From positions 3,224,001 through 3,288,000 of the forward strand of contig NZ_CP139368.1 in NCBI RefSeq assembly GCF_034120055.1: 64,000 nucleotides of DNA. The letters are read 5' to 3'. The position numbers were made by a program, and so were the translations under genes. The notes beneath the pieces are model-generated. The model ran no database searches, was not told the DNA's origin, and saw nothing but the letters and a program-made list of their open reading frames with translations. Source of the stretch: Microbacterium rhizosphaerae. Its GTDB lineage: Bacteria; Actinomycetota; Actinomycetes; Actinomycetales; Microbacteriaceae. Below are positions 16,380 through 24,091 of this stretch, piece by piece (within the stretch, counting starts at the first letter, position 1; each line of letters opens with the position of its first letter).

Positions 16380-16504
16380 GCCTCCGACGATGCCACCGAG
16401 CGCGCGGATCGCAAGCCCCCCTGGACAGGGCCGCCTCGCGTGTGAATGCTTCGGGTGCCGCGTCGCAGCCGGTGCGCGTCCGGCCTCCGGCGTACGCTCG
16501 AAGC

Positions 16505-17161
16505 GTGACCCCGGAACTGGCCGCTCGCATCGTCGCGGACTCGCGCGACCGGGTGGCCTGGGTGCGGGCGCGCTCGCGAGGCATCACGGCGACGGATGTC
16601 GCGACCCTCACCAGCACTCGCGCCATCTCGCGCGCGGCGGACGCGAAGCTCCACGGCTCCGGGTTCTCCGGCAACGCCTTCACCGACCACGGCAGACGAC
16701 GCGAACCCGAGATCGCGGGATGGGTCGCGGCGACGCACGGCATCCAGCCGTCCACCGCACTGTTCCACGCGGTCGTCGAGAAACGACACCTCGCCACGCC
16801 GGACGGCATCGCGCTGGACGTCAACGGGCACGTGATCCTCGCCGAGATCAAGACCACGAACAAGGCCTGGCGGTCGATCCCCCGGTCGTACCTTCGGCAG
16901 GTGTGGTGGCAGCAGCACGTCCTCGGCGCGGAGCGCACTCTCGTCGCGTGGGAGCAGCACACCGAATTCGTGCCCGTCGACGACGAGCCGCGCTGCGCGT
17001 GGGTGGATCGCGACGAAGCCGAGATCGCCAAGCTCGTCGGCCTCGCGACCGCGCTGATCGACGAGCTGTACCTGCGCACGCAGCACGGGCGCCGCAACGA
17101 CGGAATGCCGCGCGTGGATGCATCCCGCGACATGTACCGATCGCTCGCTCTGACCGACTGA
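16505..17161 (+). CDS. YqaJ-family (lambda-exonuclease-like) recombinase/nuclease
   Basis: A 218-residue PD-(D/E)XK nuclease of the YqaJ viral-recombinase family. Visible elements are GITATDVATL near the N terminus, the acidic helix GRRREPEIAGWV, the catalytic strand ATPDGIALD...ILAEIKTT (Asp and Glu-x-Lys), and the later LRQVWWQQHVLG helix with conserved Gln residues. An ATG at 16442 is in frame. The GTG at 16505 is 6 nt after a TACGCT -10 box (16493-16498) and removes a poorly conserved leader, so it is preferred. The family includes phage single-strand annealing partners, but related genes are also common single chromosomal genes in actinobacteria. No phage genes surround it. Confidence 0.78.
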   Translation: MTPELAARIVADSRDRVAWVRARSRGITATDVATLTSTRAISRAADAKLHGSGFSGNAFTDHGRRREPEIAGWVAATHGIQPSTALFHAVVEKRHLATPDGIALDVNGHVILAEIKTTNKAWRSIPRSYLRQVWWQQHVLGAERTLVAWEQHTEFVPVDDEPRCAWVDRDEAEIAKLVGLATALIDELYLRTQHGRRNDGMPRVDASRDMYRSLALTD

Positions 17162-19040: not shown

Positions 19041-19541
19041 ATGGTCACGACCCACACTCCGGAGGCCCGCACGCCCGCGGCGCGGGCCTCTGCGGGCGAT
19101 GAGCACGCCCTCGCCGTCCAGGCTCTCGAGGCGGAGTTCGGCGAGCTGATCGCACGCTTCCGGCGCCTCATCACCGAGGCCGCGCACCGCGTGAGTCCCG
19201 GCATGCTTCCCGGTGCCTACAAGGTGTTCACGACCATCGTCCGCCGCGAGCACACCACGATGTCGGCGCTCGCCGAGATGCTCATCATGGACAAGGGGCA
19301 GCTCAGCCGCACGGTCCGCGAGCTCGAGCAGCTCGGGCTCGTCACCCGGGTCCCCGATCCCAAGGACGGGCGCTCCAGCATCCTCTCGCCGACCGCCGAG
19401 GGGCTCGCTCGCCTCGAGGCCGCCCGGGTCCCGCAGGAGGACGGACTCGGACACGCCCTGGCGGGGTGGGACGTCGACGACATCCGCGAGCTCACGCGTC
19501 TCCTGCACGCGCTGCTGAGCGAGGAGCCGCCCGCGCGCTGA
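19041..19541 (+). CDS. MarR-family transcriptional regulator
   Basis: A 166-residue winged-helix regulator: TTMSALAEMLIMDKGQLSRTVRELEQLGLV is the recognition helix region and RVPDPKDGRSSILSPTAEG the wing. A longer frame is open from 18996. However, the ATG at 19041 lies 7 nt after a TAGCCT box (19028-19033) whose TAG is also the stop codon of the transporter gene, suggesting an extra leaderless promoter. It is the natural candidate for binding the GTTGA-N6-TCAAC sites upstream of the transporter. Confidence 0.9.
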   Translation: MVTTHTPEARTPAARASAGDEHALAVQALEAEFGELIARFRRLITEAAHRVSPGMLPGAYKVFTTIVRREHTTMSALAEMLIMDKGQLSRTVRELEQLGLVTRVPDPKDGRSSILSPTAEGLARLEAARVPQEDGLGHALAGWDVDDIRELTRLLHALLSEEPPAR

Positions 19542-19550
19542 TCGGCCCGG

Positions 19551-20732
19551 TCAGCCGGACGACGTCGCGCCGACGATGACGAGCGTGAGGATGAAGCCCA
19601 CCAGCGGTCCGACGATCGAGACGATCAGAGCCGCCACTCCCCGACGCTCCTTGCGGACGACGGCCACGATGCCGAAGGCCAGTGCGGCGAACCCGACGAG
19701 GAAGAAATCGACGTACGGGATGACGGACAGCCCGCCGAGCACGAACGCGAGCGTCGACCAGAGCTGAGACGGACGGCCGGGGCTCGACGCATCCGTCGTC
19801 TTCTGCTCGGCCGCCGCACGCGGGTGCGTGTGCTCCGTCCACCTCGCGCCGTCCCAGTACCGATCGATGCCCGGATCCTTGCCGTCCTGGTACCAGCCGG
19901 CCGGCGCCTTCGACCGGGGCGTCGACATCGGCGTCGGCGTCGACATCGGCGTGGACGGGGGCGGCGGCTGCGGCGTGACGATCGGCGTCGACTCCGGAGC
20001 GGGCACAGGAATCGGCTCCGGCTTCGGGATCGTCTCGGGCACCCCCTCCGCCTGCCGGGGCTCCGCCGGCACGGGCCTCCCTGCCAGAACCTCGTCGATC
20101 TCGGTGACGACGGCATGCGTCGCATCCGGTCGCTCGCGCAGCGCGCGCAGGAGGCTGCGCACACTCGTCCGCACCTGCTCGCTGCGCTCCTCCCGGAGTG
20201 CGGCGCGCAGCTGGGCGAGGATCAGCTGCTGGTCGGTGCGCGAGATGTCGGCCCGGCCGCGCACGACCGAGCCCAGACGCAGCAGGTACAGGTACGGGAT
20301 GGGCGGCTCCGGCGGGAGGGGATCGGGGAGCGGCTGCTTGTCGCGCTCCCGCTCGGTGAGGGCGCGGACGAGGGCGATGGCATGGTCGGCGGTCGGCGCC
20401 CGGTAGTCGACGAGCTGCTCGCTGTAGACCTCGTAGTTCCGGCGCTCCTCGGGCGGAACGTCCCCGACTTCGACCGGCAGGATGGGCCGCCCCAGCGCTT
20501 TCGCATACTCGAACTCCGCCATGCAGGGATCGGAGTCGAGGGAGTTCATCGAGAGGGCGAACACGAACACGTCGCACTCGCGGATCTGCGTGAGGATGGC
20601 GCTCCACCATGCCTCACCCCCGACGAGGCTCTCGTTGTCGAGCCAGACCGTGCGGCCCGCCGTCTGCAGGCTGCGGACGAGCACCTGCACGGCGTCCGTG
20701 TCGGTGCTGGAGTGAGAGACGAATACGGTCAT
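19551..20732 (-). CDS. TIR-domain protein with DUF2510 and C-terminal membrane anchor
   Basis: A 393-residue protein. Residues 1-135 are a TIR domain: VFVSHSSTD (box 1) at 3-11, ECDVFVFALS at 52-61, then DSDPCMAEFEYAKALGRPILPVEV, in which E73 in the CxxE helix is the candidate NADase Glu. Residues 145-215 form a helical region rich in Leu/Arg (LRLGSVVRGRADISRTDQQ onward). Residues 215-275 are a Pro/Ser/Thr linker, and about 275-300 are a DUF2510 module (PAGWYQDGKDPGIDRYWDGA). The last 75 residues hold three to four transmembrane helices. Bacterial TIR domains cleave NAD+ or make cyclic-ADP-ribose signals. It follows the SLOG gene by 112 bp on the same strand, so a two-gene operon is likely. 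Confidence 0.85.
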   Translation of the reverse strand: MTVFVSHSSTDTDAVQVLVRSLQTAGRTVWLDNESLVGGEAWWSAILTQIRECDVFVFALSMNSLDSDPCMAEFEYAKALGRPILPVEVGDVPPEERRNYEVYSEQLVDYRAPTADHAIALVRALTERERDKQPLPDPLPPEPPIPYLYLLRLGSVVRGRADISRTDQQLILAQLRAALREERSEQVRTSVRSLLRALRERPDATHAVVTEIDEVLAGRPVPAEPRQAEGVPETIPKPEPIPVPAPESTPIVTPQPPPPSTPMSTPTPMSTPRSKAPAGWYQDGKDPGIDRYWDGARWTEHTHPRAAAEQKTTDASSPGRPSQLWSTLAFVLGGLSVIPYVDFFLVGFAALAFGIVAVVRKERRGVAALIVSIVGPLVGFILTLVIVGATSSG

Positions 20733-20844
20733 TGGATGCGATCCTGCCTCGCGACGGCGCTCGGACTGTGATCGCGATCGTAGCCCTTCCTCAGCGCTGT
20801 CTCACTGAGGAGAGGGCGCGGGGCCGCCCCCGGATACGCGCACA

Positions 20845-22431
20845 TCACGGCACCTCGAGGTCGTGCATCGTGGTCGTCGTCGACCAGTCCTGGGATTCCG
20901 CCGCGAGCACCGGCTGCATCGCCGCGAGGACGGCGTGGAGCTGCGCCGGATTCGCGGCGCGGTCCACGCTCGATCGGGCCGCGCGCAGCGTGTCCGCCGC
21001 CTGCCGCGAGCGCCGGGCCCGCCGCACGTATTCGCGCTGGCCGACGTAGCCGCTGACGGCGGCCGCAGCGGTCGGGGCGATGATCGACACGTACGACCAA
21101 TAGGCCGGCATCCCCTCGAACACGAACAGATCGAGGCTGTGCATGATCGCGGCGGCGAGGCTCAGCACGAAGAGCCCGACGGTGATCGGGACGACCACGC
21201 GGAGCCGACTCTGCGCGCGCGCCTCGGCGCTGTCGTGGTACGCGATCTGCGGATCGAGCCAGCCGGTGACGAGGGCGTTCTGGAGCTGTGCGAACGACCG
21301 GTCGACGGGGCCGTCGGGAGCCCGCATCCACAGTTCTTCGACAGCACGCTCGACCCAGTCGCCGTCGTCGAGGACCGGGCCCCAGCGCGGCGGGTCGGGC
21401 ATGCCCGCAGAACGCAGCACCGTCGCCACCCTGATCCGCTCGGCGAGCTGCCGTGCCGACAGCCACCGGCGCAGCAGCTGCAGGCGCCGGCCGAGGAACA
21501 GCACGATCGTGATGATCGCGAGCGCCGCCACCTCGATCCAGGCCGGCCACCGTTCCTGCGGAAAGAAGACGAGCTGGCCCGCGACGGATGCGACCGCCAC
21601 CACCGCGAGCGCATAGATCAGCTGGCTCGATCGGAGCAGCCACCGCTGATACCGGCCGGCGAGGCGGTCGGCGCGCGCGAAGTACGGCTGGAAGAAGCGG
21701 GCGTCCTCGGGTCCGGCTGCCGCGTCGGCGGGCCGGACGGACTGCGAGTTGTAGGCATCGAGCGCACGGAAGGCGCGCGGCGACAGGGGTCCGAGGTCGT
21801 CCGGAACGGGGTGCTCTCGACGCTCGCGGATCCCGATGATCCCGGCGGCGGGTTCGACCCGCAGCCAGCGCACCGGCCTGCCGATGGCGTCGGCGTACGC
21901 CACGATCTCGGCCGTGCCTCCGGTGCCCCGCGCCGGCTCGCCGTCCCAGATCGCGATCACGGCGTCGCAGCGTTCGACGACCCGCATCCCGCCCTCGAGA
22001 TAGGCCGCGTCACGGTCGTCGCGGATCGGCAGTGCGGTGACGGATGCCGCGTCGGCGAGGAGCTCCCGGTACCGCGCGAGCGACTCCGGCGTCTGGAAGT
22101 CCTTCTCGTAGTCGGCCGACGGCAGGGGCAGCACGACCTCCAGTCGTGCGCCGCGGTCCACGGCAGCCGCCGCCGCGATGCGGTCAGCACCCTCCGCGAG
22201 CGCAGACACCACGGTCAGACCGACGGAGGTGTTCGCCGTCGCGCTGTTCGAACGGCGCTGCCAGAGGTCGTCGACGGCCGCGGCCACGGCACCGCGCGTG
22301 ACGTCGTCGTCCTCGAGCCACCGGTGCCCGACGATGCCGATCCTCAGCTCCACAGGCACCCGCCCGTGCGTATCCGGCCGGTGCGCGACAGACGTCGCGG
22401 CAGAGGCCCCCGTCCCCCGAACGTCAGCCAT
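20845..22431 (-). CDS. SLOG-like nucleotide-sensor domain fused to SLATT-like transmembrane hairpins
   Basis: A 528-residue protein. Residues 28-200 look like a SLOG (SMF/LOG-type Rossmann) domain: LRIGIVGHRWL at 29-39, VVSALAEGADRIAA at 74-87, VVLPLPSADYEKDF at 99-112, RCDAVIAIWDG at 154-164 and RGTGGTAEIVAYA at 168-180. The last is a variant of the LOG GGxGTxxE loop. Two transmembrane hairpins follow (about 268-290/298-316 and 413-431/441-464). They are separated by an Arg-rich helical linker (RRWLSARQLAERIRVATVLR) reminiscent of SLATT domains. The frame is open further upstream, but ATG 22431 has a CACAGT box 6 nt before it. SLOG-SLATT proteins are predicted nucleotide-gated membrane effectors; the partner TIR gene supports that idea. 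Family assignment is by eye only. Confidence 0.7.
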   Translation of the reverse strand: MADVRGTGASAATSVAHRPDTHGRVPVELRIGIVGHRWLEDDDVTRGAVAAAVDDLWQRRSNSATANTSVGLTVVSALAEGADRIAAAAAVDRGARLEVVLPLPSADYEKDFQTPESLARYRELLADAASVTALPIRDDRDAAYLEGGMRVVERCDAVIAIWDGEPARGTGGTAEIVAYADAIGRPVRWLRVEPAAGIIGIRERREHPVPDDLGPLSPRAFRALDAYNSQSVRPADAAAGPEDARFFQPYFARADRLAGRYQRWLLRSSQLIYALAVVAVASVAGQLVFFPQERWPAWIEVAALAIITIVLFLGRRLQLLRRWLSARQLAERIRVATVLRSAGMPDPPRWGPVLDDGDWVERAVEELWMRAPDGPVDRSFAQLQNALVTGWLDPQIAYHDSAEARAQSRLRVVVPITVGLFVLSLAAAIMHSLDLFVFEGMPAYWSYVSIIAPTAAAAVSGYVGQREYVRRARRSRQAADTLRAARSSVDRAANPAQLHAVLAAMQPVLAAESQDWSTTTTMHDLEVP

Positions 22432-22472
22432 GTGCACACTGTGCCACGGCGGCTTCTCGAGAGGTAGGGCCG

Positions 22473-23363
22473 TCAGCGCAGGGCGCGGCGGCCCTCCTCG
22501 ACGATCGCTGCGCCCACCGCGTCGAGCAGACCGGAACGCAGATTCCACTGCTGCCAGTACAGGCGCACCTCGATCGGCGGCCCGCCGAGCTCGATGAGGC
22601 GTCCGCCCGCCAGCTCGTCGTCGCACTGGAAGGGCGGCAGCATCCCCCACCCCATCCCGAGCCGGACGGCGGTGGCGAAGTCCGCGGACGACGGAACGTG
22701 GTGCCGGGGCGGGGCACCCGAGTCGACGCCACAGGCGACGAGCCACTCCGTCTGGAGCTCATCCTTGCGGTTGAAGTCGACGACCGGTGCGACCGCGAGC
22801 GCGTCGACGGTCGCGCCGTGCGGGAACCAGGTGGCGGCGAACTCCGGCTGGGCCACGGCACGGTAGGCCATCGTGCCGATCGGCACGACGCTGCATCCCG
22901 CGACCGCCTCCGCCTGCGAGGTGACCGCACCCATCACGAGCCCCTCCTCGAGCTGGCCCGTCGTGTACTCCTGGTCGTCGCGATGGAGTTCGAAGGTGAC
23001 GGGATGCTCGTGCGCCAGCCGTGCGAGCGGCGGCAGGAACCACGTCGCGAGCGAGTCGGCGTTCACGGCGAGGGGCACGGTGACCCGATGCGCGGCGCCC
23101 TCGCCCTCGCCGCCGAGCGCCGTGCGCGCATCGTGCTCGAGCAGGGCGAGCTGCCGCGCGAGCCGGATGACGACCGTGCCCGCCTCGGTGGCACGCGCGG
23201 GCTTCGACCGCACGAGCAGAACGCGGCCGACCTCGCGCTCGAGCGCCTTGATGCGCTGGCTGACGGCCGACGGAGTGATGTGCAGCCTCCGGGCGGCCGC
23301 ATCCAGCGTGCCCTCGTCGACGACGGCGGCGACGGTCTCGGCCAACTCGAACGGAATCCTCAT
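22473..23363 (-). CDS. lysG: LysR-family regulator of lysine/arginine export (ArgP/LysG type)
   Basis: A 296-residue LysR-type regulator. The N-terminal helix-turn-helix is VAAVVDEGTLDAAARRLHITPSAVSQRIKALEREVGR, the exact style of ArgP/LysG. A C-terminal effector domain follows. A TTG directly upstream is in frame, but the ATG at 23363 is used here. A TAGCGT box (23372-23377) lies 8 nt before it, so the transcript is probably leaderless. It is divergent from lysE, the standard arrangement. LysG activates lysE when intracellular lysine, arginine or similar basic amino acids rise. Confidence 0.92.
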   Translation of the reverse strand: MRIPFELAETVAAVVDEGTLDAAARRLHITPSAVSQRIKALEREVGRVLLVRSKPARATEAGTVVIRLARQLALLEHDARTALGGEGEGAAHRVTVPLAVNADSLATWFLPPLARLAHEHPVTFELHRDDQEYTTGQLEEGLVMGAVTSQAEAVAGCSVVPIGTMAYRAVAQPEFAATWFPHGATVDALAVAPVVDFNRKDELQTEWLVACGVDSGAPPRHHVPSSADFATAVRLGMGWGMLPPFQCDDELAGGRLIELGGPPIEVRLYWQQWNLRSGLLDAVGAAIVEEGRRALR

Positions 23364-23434
23364 CAACAGCCACGCTAATGCATCTGAAGAATCATGAGCT
23401 GGACTGAATGGATGCCGGCCCCTACCGTCGAAGG

Positions 23435-24091
23435 GTGCTCACCTCCGTCGTCGCCGGCCTCGGCCTCGGGTTCTCGCTCATCGTCGCCATCGGCGCGCAG
23501 AACCTCTACGTCCTGCGGCAGGGACTGCGCCGCGAGCACGTGCCGGCGGTGGCGCTCATCTGCGCCGTGTCGGACATCGTGCTGATCTCACTCGGCGTCT
23601 CGGGGATCGGCCTCGCGCTGCAGGCCGTCCCGTGGCTGGTCGGCGTCGTGCGCTGGGTCGGCGCCGCATTCCTGCTCGTGTACGCCGGCATGGCCGGCTG
23701 GCGCGCCCTCCGGCCCTCGGGTGAGGCGCTCGTCGCCGACGCAGCGAGTCCGACGCCCTCCGTGCACACCCGCCCCGGTGGCACGACGACGGTCGCCGCT
23801 CAGCGCCTGGGAACCGTCATCCTCACGTGCCTCGCCCTCACCTGGCTGAACCCGCACGTGTATCTCGACACCGTGTTCCTGCTGGGCTCGATCGCGAACT
23901 CGCACGGCGACCAGCGGTGGGCCTTCGCGGTCGGGGCGATGATGGCGAGCGCCGTGTGGTTCTTCGGCCTCGCCTACGGCGCACGCTATCTCGGGCGGTG
24001 GCTGGCGACGACCCGAGCATGGCGCATCCTGGACGGGATCATCGCCGTCGTCATGGTCGTGATCGCCCTCAACCTCGCGCTCGGCGCGTGA
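23435..24091 (+). CDS. lysE: LysE-family basic amino-acid exporter
   Basis: A 218-residue inner-membrane exporter with about five to six helices. The family core GLGLGFSLIVAIGAQNLYVLRQGLRREHV is at the N terminus and CLALTWLNPHVYLDTVFLLG marks the second conserved block. The frame opens at 23408, but the GTG at 23435 lies 6 nt after a TACCGT box (23423-23428) and gives the usual LysE N terminus. It exports lysine and arginine to prevent accumulation from peptides. It is divergent from the LysG-type gene. Its last 23 bp overlap the end of the convergent DUF1801 gene. Confidence 0.93.
   Translation: MLTSVVAGLGLGFSLIVAIGAQNLYVLRQGLRREHVPAVALICAVSDIVLISLGVSGIGLALQAVPWLVGVVRWVGAAFLLVYAGMAGWRALRPSGEALVADAASPTPSVHTRPGGTTTVAAQRLGTVILTCLALTWLNPHVYLDTVFLLGSIANSHGDQRWAFAVGAMMASAVWFFGLAYGARYLGRWLATTRAWRILDGIIAVVMVVIALNLALGA

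Follow-up and report, generated by a model that had tools for sequence, protein, structure and literature searches.

The described systems closest to the present locus are Thoeris and the SLATT conflict systems. For Thoeris, PMC12847820 describes types I, II and the caspase-like type IV, and type VI is reported to signal through 2'cADPR (PMC13232231). In type I, a TIR protein (ThsB) is accompanied by a SIR2-SLOG protein (ThsA), whereas ThsA of type II is reported to be a TM-macro membrane protein (PMC11204291) and, as a membrane effector, reportedly perturbs the membrane (PMC12847820, PMC12948488). SLATT domains were predicted by Burroughs, Aravind and colleagues to form nucleotide-responsive pores, and TIR-SLATT neighbourhoods have been reported in firmicute phages (PMC7159879, PMC9503650). 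SLATT proteins have also been reported beside reverse transcriptase and in RADAR (PMC9122126, PMC7699616), and no SLOG occurs in PMC13142454. Our literature search found no study testing a TIR + SLOG-SLATT pair.

Here, we describe such a pair in a window of Microbacterium rhizosphaerae DNA, the window being the whole stretch of 64,000 nucleotides that was analysed. As in type I Thoeris, a TIR gene adjoins the gene of a SLOG-bearing effector, a likeness that for the SLOG holds at fold level only; unlike type I, the effector module consists of two SLATT modules, SIR2 has no Pfam match up to E 10 in either window protein, and TM helices are predicted in the TIR protein. With type II the pair shares a TIR plus a membrane effector, but it has SLOG instead of macro (no Pfam match to a macro domain up to E 10 in either protein) and SLATT instead of that TM domain. 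The initial annotation took membrane location to be the difference from Thoeris, which is only partly right, because ThsA of type II is itself reported to be membrane-bound. The SLATT conflict systems share with the pair SLATT as a predicted nucleotide-responsive pore and the TIR-SLATT neighbourhood; the window chain differs in being SLOG + SLATT_3 + SLATT_1, and the window TIR in carrying DUF2510 and two TM helices. The pair further differs from TRPM channels and LSDAT-SLATT proteins, in that none of our tests identified SLATT as a TRP-type channel, and from CBASS and SMODS-SLATT, in that the two window proteins have no SMODS match in Pfam. PADLOC 2023 contained no clear model for the window SLOG-SLATT protein (best E 0.0093 and 0.012) and gave nothing up to E 0.01 for the SLOG-SLATT protein of related locus L036 or the LSDAT-SLATT protein of L044, and the type III Thoeris ThcB4 model scored 20.2 bits on the TIR protein against a cut-off of 220. 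The pair would appear to be a new form of a predicted kind of TIR-to-membrane-effector signalling.

Architecture of the two proteins

The features of both genes are collected in Table 1.

Table 1. Positions of the features of the gene pair in the window
Feature	Residues	Position	Strand	Basis
SLOG-SLATT-SLATT protein, 528 aa		20845..22431	(-)	ORF and translation, Pfam, NCBIfam, AF2 model
SLOG domain	27-216	21784..22353	(-)	
SLATT module 1 (SLATT_3)	250-334	21430..21684	(-)	PF18184 7.6e-6, above cut-off
SLATT module 2 (SLATT_1)	394-516	20884..21252	(-)	NCBIfam SLATT_1 1.9e-9 and PF18181 0.0035, both below cut-off
Spacer of 112 bp between the two genes		20733..20844	(.)	scored for promoter/terminator consensus
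TIR protein (TIR, helical domain, Pro-rich linker, DUF2510, 2 TM), 393 aa		19551..20732	(-)	ORF, Pfam, AF2
TIR domain; E73 codon 20514-20516	3-111	20400..20726	(-)	
Conserved helical region	135-217	20082..20330	(-)	homologue alignment; four AF2 helices in 148-216
DUF2510	278-309	19806..19901	(-)	Pfam 4.9e-12
Two predicted TM helices	341-387	19572..19712	(-)	hydropathy 2.48 and 2.79

The TIR protein bears out what had been read from it. Pfam TIR_2 matches its TIR domain at 2.9e-19 (70.2 bits against a cut-off of 28), box 1 (VFVSHSS) and the C70xxE73 motif are present as claimed, and C70 and E73 are invariant among 44 aligned sequences. S6, H7, D32, S67 and E73 align with the identical residues S7, H8, D33, S68 and E74 of Cat1, which are reported to line its NADase site and of which D33A, S68A and E74A are reported to be defective in growth arrest (PMC12162218); E73 thus stands at the position of the NADase glutamate, as the initial annotation had supposed. 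S8 and S9 are unlike the aligned N9 and N10 of Cat1, and Cat1 K121 and Y122 fall beyond the alignment. Judged by these residues, the active site is apparently intact. The claimed DUF2510 link and membrane anchor were likewise recovered, the latter as two C-terminal hydrophobic segments in a hydropathy scan (residues 341-359 and 369-387). The AF2 model has a pLDDT of 82.1 and a pTM of 0.58. The helical region, which has no Pfam match, resembles a common domain for adaptor or oligomerisation functions.

In the second protein, the SLOG assignment rests on predicted structure and motifs, since no Pfam SLOG model scored above its cut-off (the top one, YAcAr, reached E 0.055 and 13.7 bits against 28.2). 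The AF2 model (pLDDT 89.1, pTM 0.86) comprises an alpha/beta N-domain, in which a Rossmann-like SLOG fold with a G-rich loop is present at fold level, and two all-helical modules. The expected motifs GIVGHR, ALAEGAD and GTGGTAE were all found, and G81, G171, G172 and T173 are invariant among 43 aligned sequences. The N-terminal fold proposed earlier is thus SLOG by predicted structure, and the SLATT part is identified by profile. A structure search placed the SLOG domain closer to YpsA and DprA than to LOG enzymes, which argues against its being a LOG-like glycosidase that makes or clears a signal rather than senses it. Single homologues carry S, H or Q at position 175, which may point the same way, and we give the enzyme reading very little credence.

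For the SLATT part, the Pfam SLATT_3 score of 26.7 bits lies just over its cut-off of 26.3, and the SLATT_1 score on the second module is 17.8 bits against the same value; NCBIfam matched both SLATT_1 and SLATT_3 (5.3e-7 for the latter), each under the NCBI cut-off. The two TM hairpins claimed for this part stand in the predicted structure and only partly in the hydropathy scan. The two all-helical modules are consistent with two hairpins, and the modelled helices at 242-316 and 380-466 fit two TM helices per module; of the four segments expected, the scan picked up both in module 1 and one of two in module 2, residues 444-466 being the segment that did not score. Compared with solved structures, the SLATT regions gave no trustworthy structural match. 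Sequence and profile searches of solved structures returned Plexin-B1 (E 0.82) for the SLOG-SLATT protein and BZLF1/Zta (E 0.47-0.48) for its profile, both of which were set aside as chance.

Arrangement, site and rarity of the pair

The two genes lie on the same strand, adjacent as claimed, and no consensus promoter- or terminator-like site was scored in the spacer, so that co-transcription of the pair is possible. The pair is rare. In its own genome (4.06 Mb, one contig), the window's TIR is the sole TIR_2 match at E <=0.001. The SLOG-SLATT protein was matched in two of 366 genus genomes, its own and one with a weak partial match, so the gene is complete in one; among 249 family genomes there were three matches, the two besides its own being partial and confined to the SLOG region. 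The TIR protein search matched 141 of the 249 family genomes, where, among the matches listed, those outside the own genome cover DUF2510 and the C-terminal part and not the TIR.

A search of 119 genus genomes for the LysR-type (ArgP-like) gene that adjoins the pair supplied 29 loci of other species. MFS-MarR genes directly adjoin it in three of the 29 (L141, L158, L161), the closest empty site being L141 with about 55 bp from the MarR match to the LysR-type match; in five others that were inspected the adjoining ORF is one that we take to be zinc-type oxidoreductase-like. The two genes therefore occupy a variable spot as a single block, and relatives lack them there; the pair was probably gained horizontally.

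As to a vehicle, plasmids gave 13 partial matches, none over >=80% of the query, and no DNA-level match for 19400-23500. A phage origin was rejected: tblastn found no match in 50,697 phage records, and the 24 relatives on viral contigs are all SLOG-only, none with a TIR within 4 kb by a profile built from TIR homologues.

Seven neighbouring window proteins were scanned and none belongs to a known defence family, although one has a YqaJ-like viral recombinase domain (5.5e-7; 16442-17158(+)), its gene being the third away from the pair. These neighbours, together with a literature search that yielded no experiment tying the pair to phage, would suit a membrane NAD/ADPR-sensing unit with a non-defence role in stress or dormancy. 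The patchy distribution and insertion-like site are typical of defence genes and stand against such a role, which we regard as the least probable of the readings considered.

Linkage to TIR genes and variation of the partners

From GTDB contigs, the best 80 of at least 443 confirmed relatives were taken, comprising 54 SLOG-SLATT and 26 SLOG-only loci; the 54 are therefore the best-scoring and not a random sample. Within this best-scoring set, a TIR_2 match (PF13676, frame length checked) lies within 4 kb at 29 of the 54 SLOG-SLATT loci. The same 54 genomes contain 198 TIR_2 matches at E <=1e-5 in 244.8 Mb (rounded sizes), and uniform placement, a model that leaves defence-island clustering aside, would give 0.42 loci. 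In 23 of the 29 TIR-linked loci, <=600 bp separate the SLOG/SLATT domains from the open frame of the TIR, counted from stop to stop. The 29 loci span Actinobacteria, Chloroflexi/SAR202, Deltaproteobacteria/Geobacter, other Proteobacteria, Acidobacteria and Verrucomicrobia; they are not independent, as nine are from Verrucomicrobia or Opitutae. The linkage of SLOG-SLATT with TIR across phyla is strong. An earlier count of 25 of 54 came from the homologue-built profile, which missed divergent TIRs, and five apparent neighbours (L041, L048, L050, L059, L061) were discarded as coordinate coincidences with TIRs on other contigs. That homologue-built profile, again among the best 80 of at least 443, puts a TIR within 4 kb of eight of the 26 SLOG-only loci, against its 25 of 54 for SLOG-SLATT, so TIR accompanies this kind of SLOG whether or not SLATT is present.

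The closest homologues of the two proteins were found on contigs of equal size (3579, 4914, 14556 and 7852), with identities of 98/96, 91/87, 57/50 and 55/49%, which strongly suggests co-location of the pair. The conserved co-occurrence on which the initial annotation depended is thus borne out by both comparisons. These data also bear on whether two separate defence or stress genes merely came to lie side by side. Clustering is usual for defence genes, orientation varies among the 29 loci (14 codirectional, 14 divergent, 1 convergent), as does gene order, and the complete gene is confined to a single genus genome; but TIR linkage recurs over several phyla, the genome's only TIR_2 match sits 112 bp from the SLOG-SLATT gene, and the equal-sized contigs are common to close homologues of both proteins. 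We consider chance adjacency quite improbable.

The TIR partners vary. At L036, the TIR protein has a CD225-type TM part and its gene precedes that of SLOG-SLATT, the reverse of the window order, with an overlap of 4 bp (ATGA). At L044 and L047, a divergent TIR-DUF2510 gene is followed by a gene for an LSDAT_prok-SLATT-SLATT protein and then by SLOG-SLATT-SLATT; here, an LSDAT_prok (TRPM-type SLOG) gene adjoins a YpsA-type SLOG gene (L044:5968-7965, L047:6139-7956), and a channel of mixed make-up may arise from these paralogous effectors. The partner is TIR-WD40 at L039 and L055 and TIR-NB-ARC-TPR at L042. The reverse order of events is the main rival to a TIR signal acting on SLOG-SLATT: SLOG-SLATT would be the sensor, of a nucleotide or of membrane damage, and TIR the NAD+-depleting effector. 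It draws on SPARTA, the top structural match of the TIR, and on reports that the TIR proteins of SPARTA and Cat1 work through NAD+ depletion (PMC12847820, PMC12162218). WD40 and NB-ARC-TPR, in contrast, are sensor-like modules borne by the TIR partners, and a constant SLOG-SLATT with varying TIR modules is what would be expected of an effector that stays the same and a sensor that changes, so that we hold the reverse order to be unlikely.

Some further arrangements were observed. The helical region of the window TIR is common to TIR homologues with differing C-termini (DUF2510, FHA, NHL or WD40 propeller, SH3-like). At L064:4391-6392, a solo SLOG protein of 203 aa, to which no Pfam family matched, precedes a TIR protein; the latter fits the helical-region profile and carries an RDD domain at its C-terminus. 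TIR clusters adjoin the SLOG-SLATT genes of L078, L065 and L053 (G650:C50, G640:C37, G629:C12), with nine TIR_2 matches in about 23 kb of G650:C50.

Other families recur where TIR is missing. DUF4062, reported to be a TIR-like NADase family (PMC13174449), lies within 4 kb at three of the 25 TIR-less loci (L048, L110, L113; L110 by Pfam too). RyR lies within 4 kb at seven of 50 loci searched (L049, L053, L056, L057, L059, L060, L062), of which L053, L056, L057 and L059 were also seen by Pfam and four are TIR-less (L049, L056, L057, L059); matches at L045 (4.9 kb) and L048 (5.4 kb) are beyond this distance and were left out. Phage RyR-domain proteins are reported to degrade or bind cADPR isomers (PMC13232231). 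At least one of TIR, DUF4062 and RyR is thus within 4 kb at 36 of the 54 loci (from the best 80 of at least 443) and none was found at 18, of which the RyR search covered 15. Remaining TIR-less neighbours that were scanned are MFS, glycoside hydrolases, rhodanese or proteins of no Pfam family. The RyR search gave matches in 11 of its 50 genomes; the RyR proteins near SLOG-SLATT have an AAA ATPase in L056 and L059 and TrkA_N in L053:10005-11813, and the contig of the L048 SLOG-SLATT gene (G624:C133) holds six DUF4062 and several RyR matches. As SMODS was found in two of the 25 TIR-less genomes and at none of the 25 loci, oligonucleotide signalling by SMODS to SLOG-SLATT was dropped as the main reading.

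Proposed mechanism and implications

Taken as a whole, the pair is probably a horizontally gained, nucleotide-signalling two-gene unit, with anti-phage abortive infection as its likeliest role, in which a TIR signal acts on SLOG-SLATT. The membrane-tethered TIR protein, once triggered, would convert NAD+ to a signal of the ADP-ribose type, perhaps one of the cyclic ADPR isomers; this signal would be bound by the SLOG domain; the SLATT modules, two per chain, would then assemble and permeabilise the inner membrane, and the infected cell would stop or die. We infer this order of events, in which the TIR signal gates SLOG-SLATT, and the combination of variable TIR partners with a constant SLOG-SLATT favours the latter as the effector. 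In a bolder and more tentative form, which we hold to be less likely than not, the ADPR-type messenger of the membrane-anchored TIR would open a TRPM-like 'SLOG-on-a-channel' pore of tandem SLATT, DUF4062 and RyR would substitute for or regulate TIR elsewhere, and the whole would be a distinct class of immune signalling.

If the proposed mechanism is true, a SLOG domain, of a kind that also occurs on animal TRPM channels, would link TIR-made, NAD-derived signals straight to permeabilisation of the membrane, and two compact genes would make the old prediction of SLATT as a nucleotide-gated pore testable. Given the recurrent TIR, DUF4062 and RyR neighbours, ADPR-type nucleotides are the candidate ligands to consider first. 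The pair, relatives of which occur in several bacterial phyla, looks like a small membrane-bound alarm system, most likely against virus infection.
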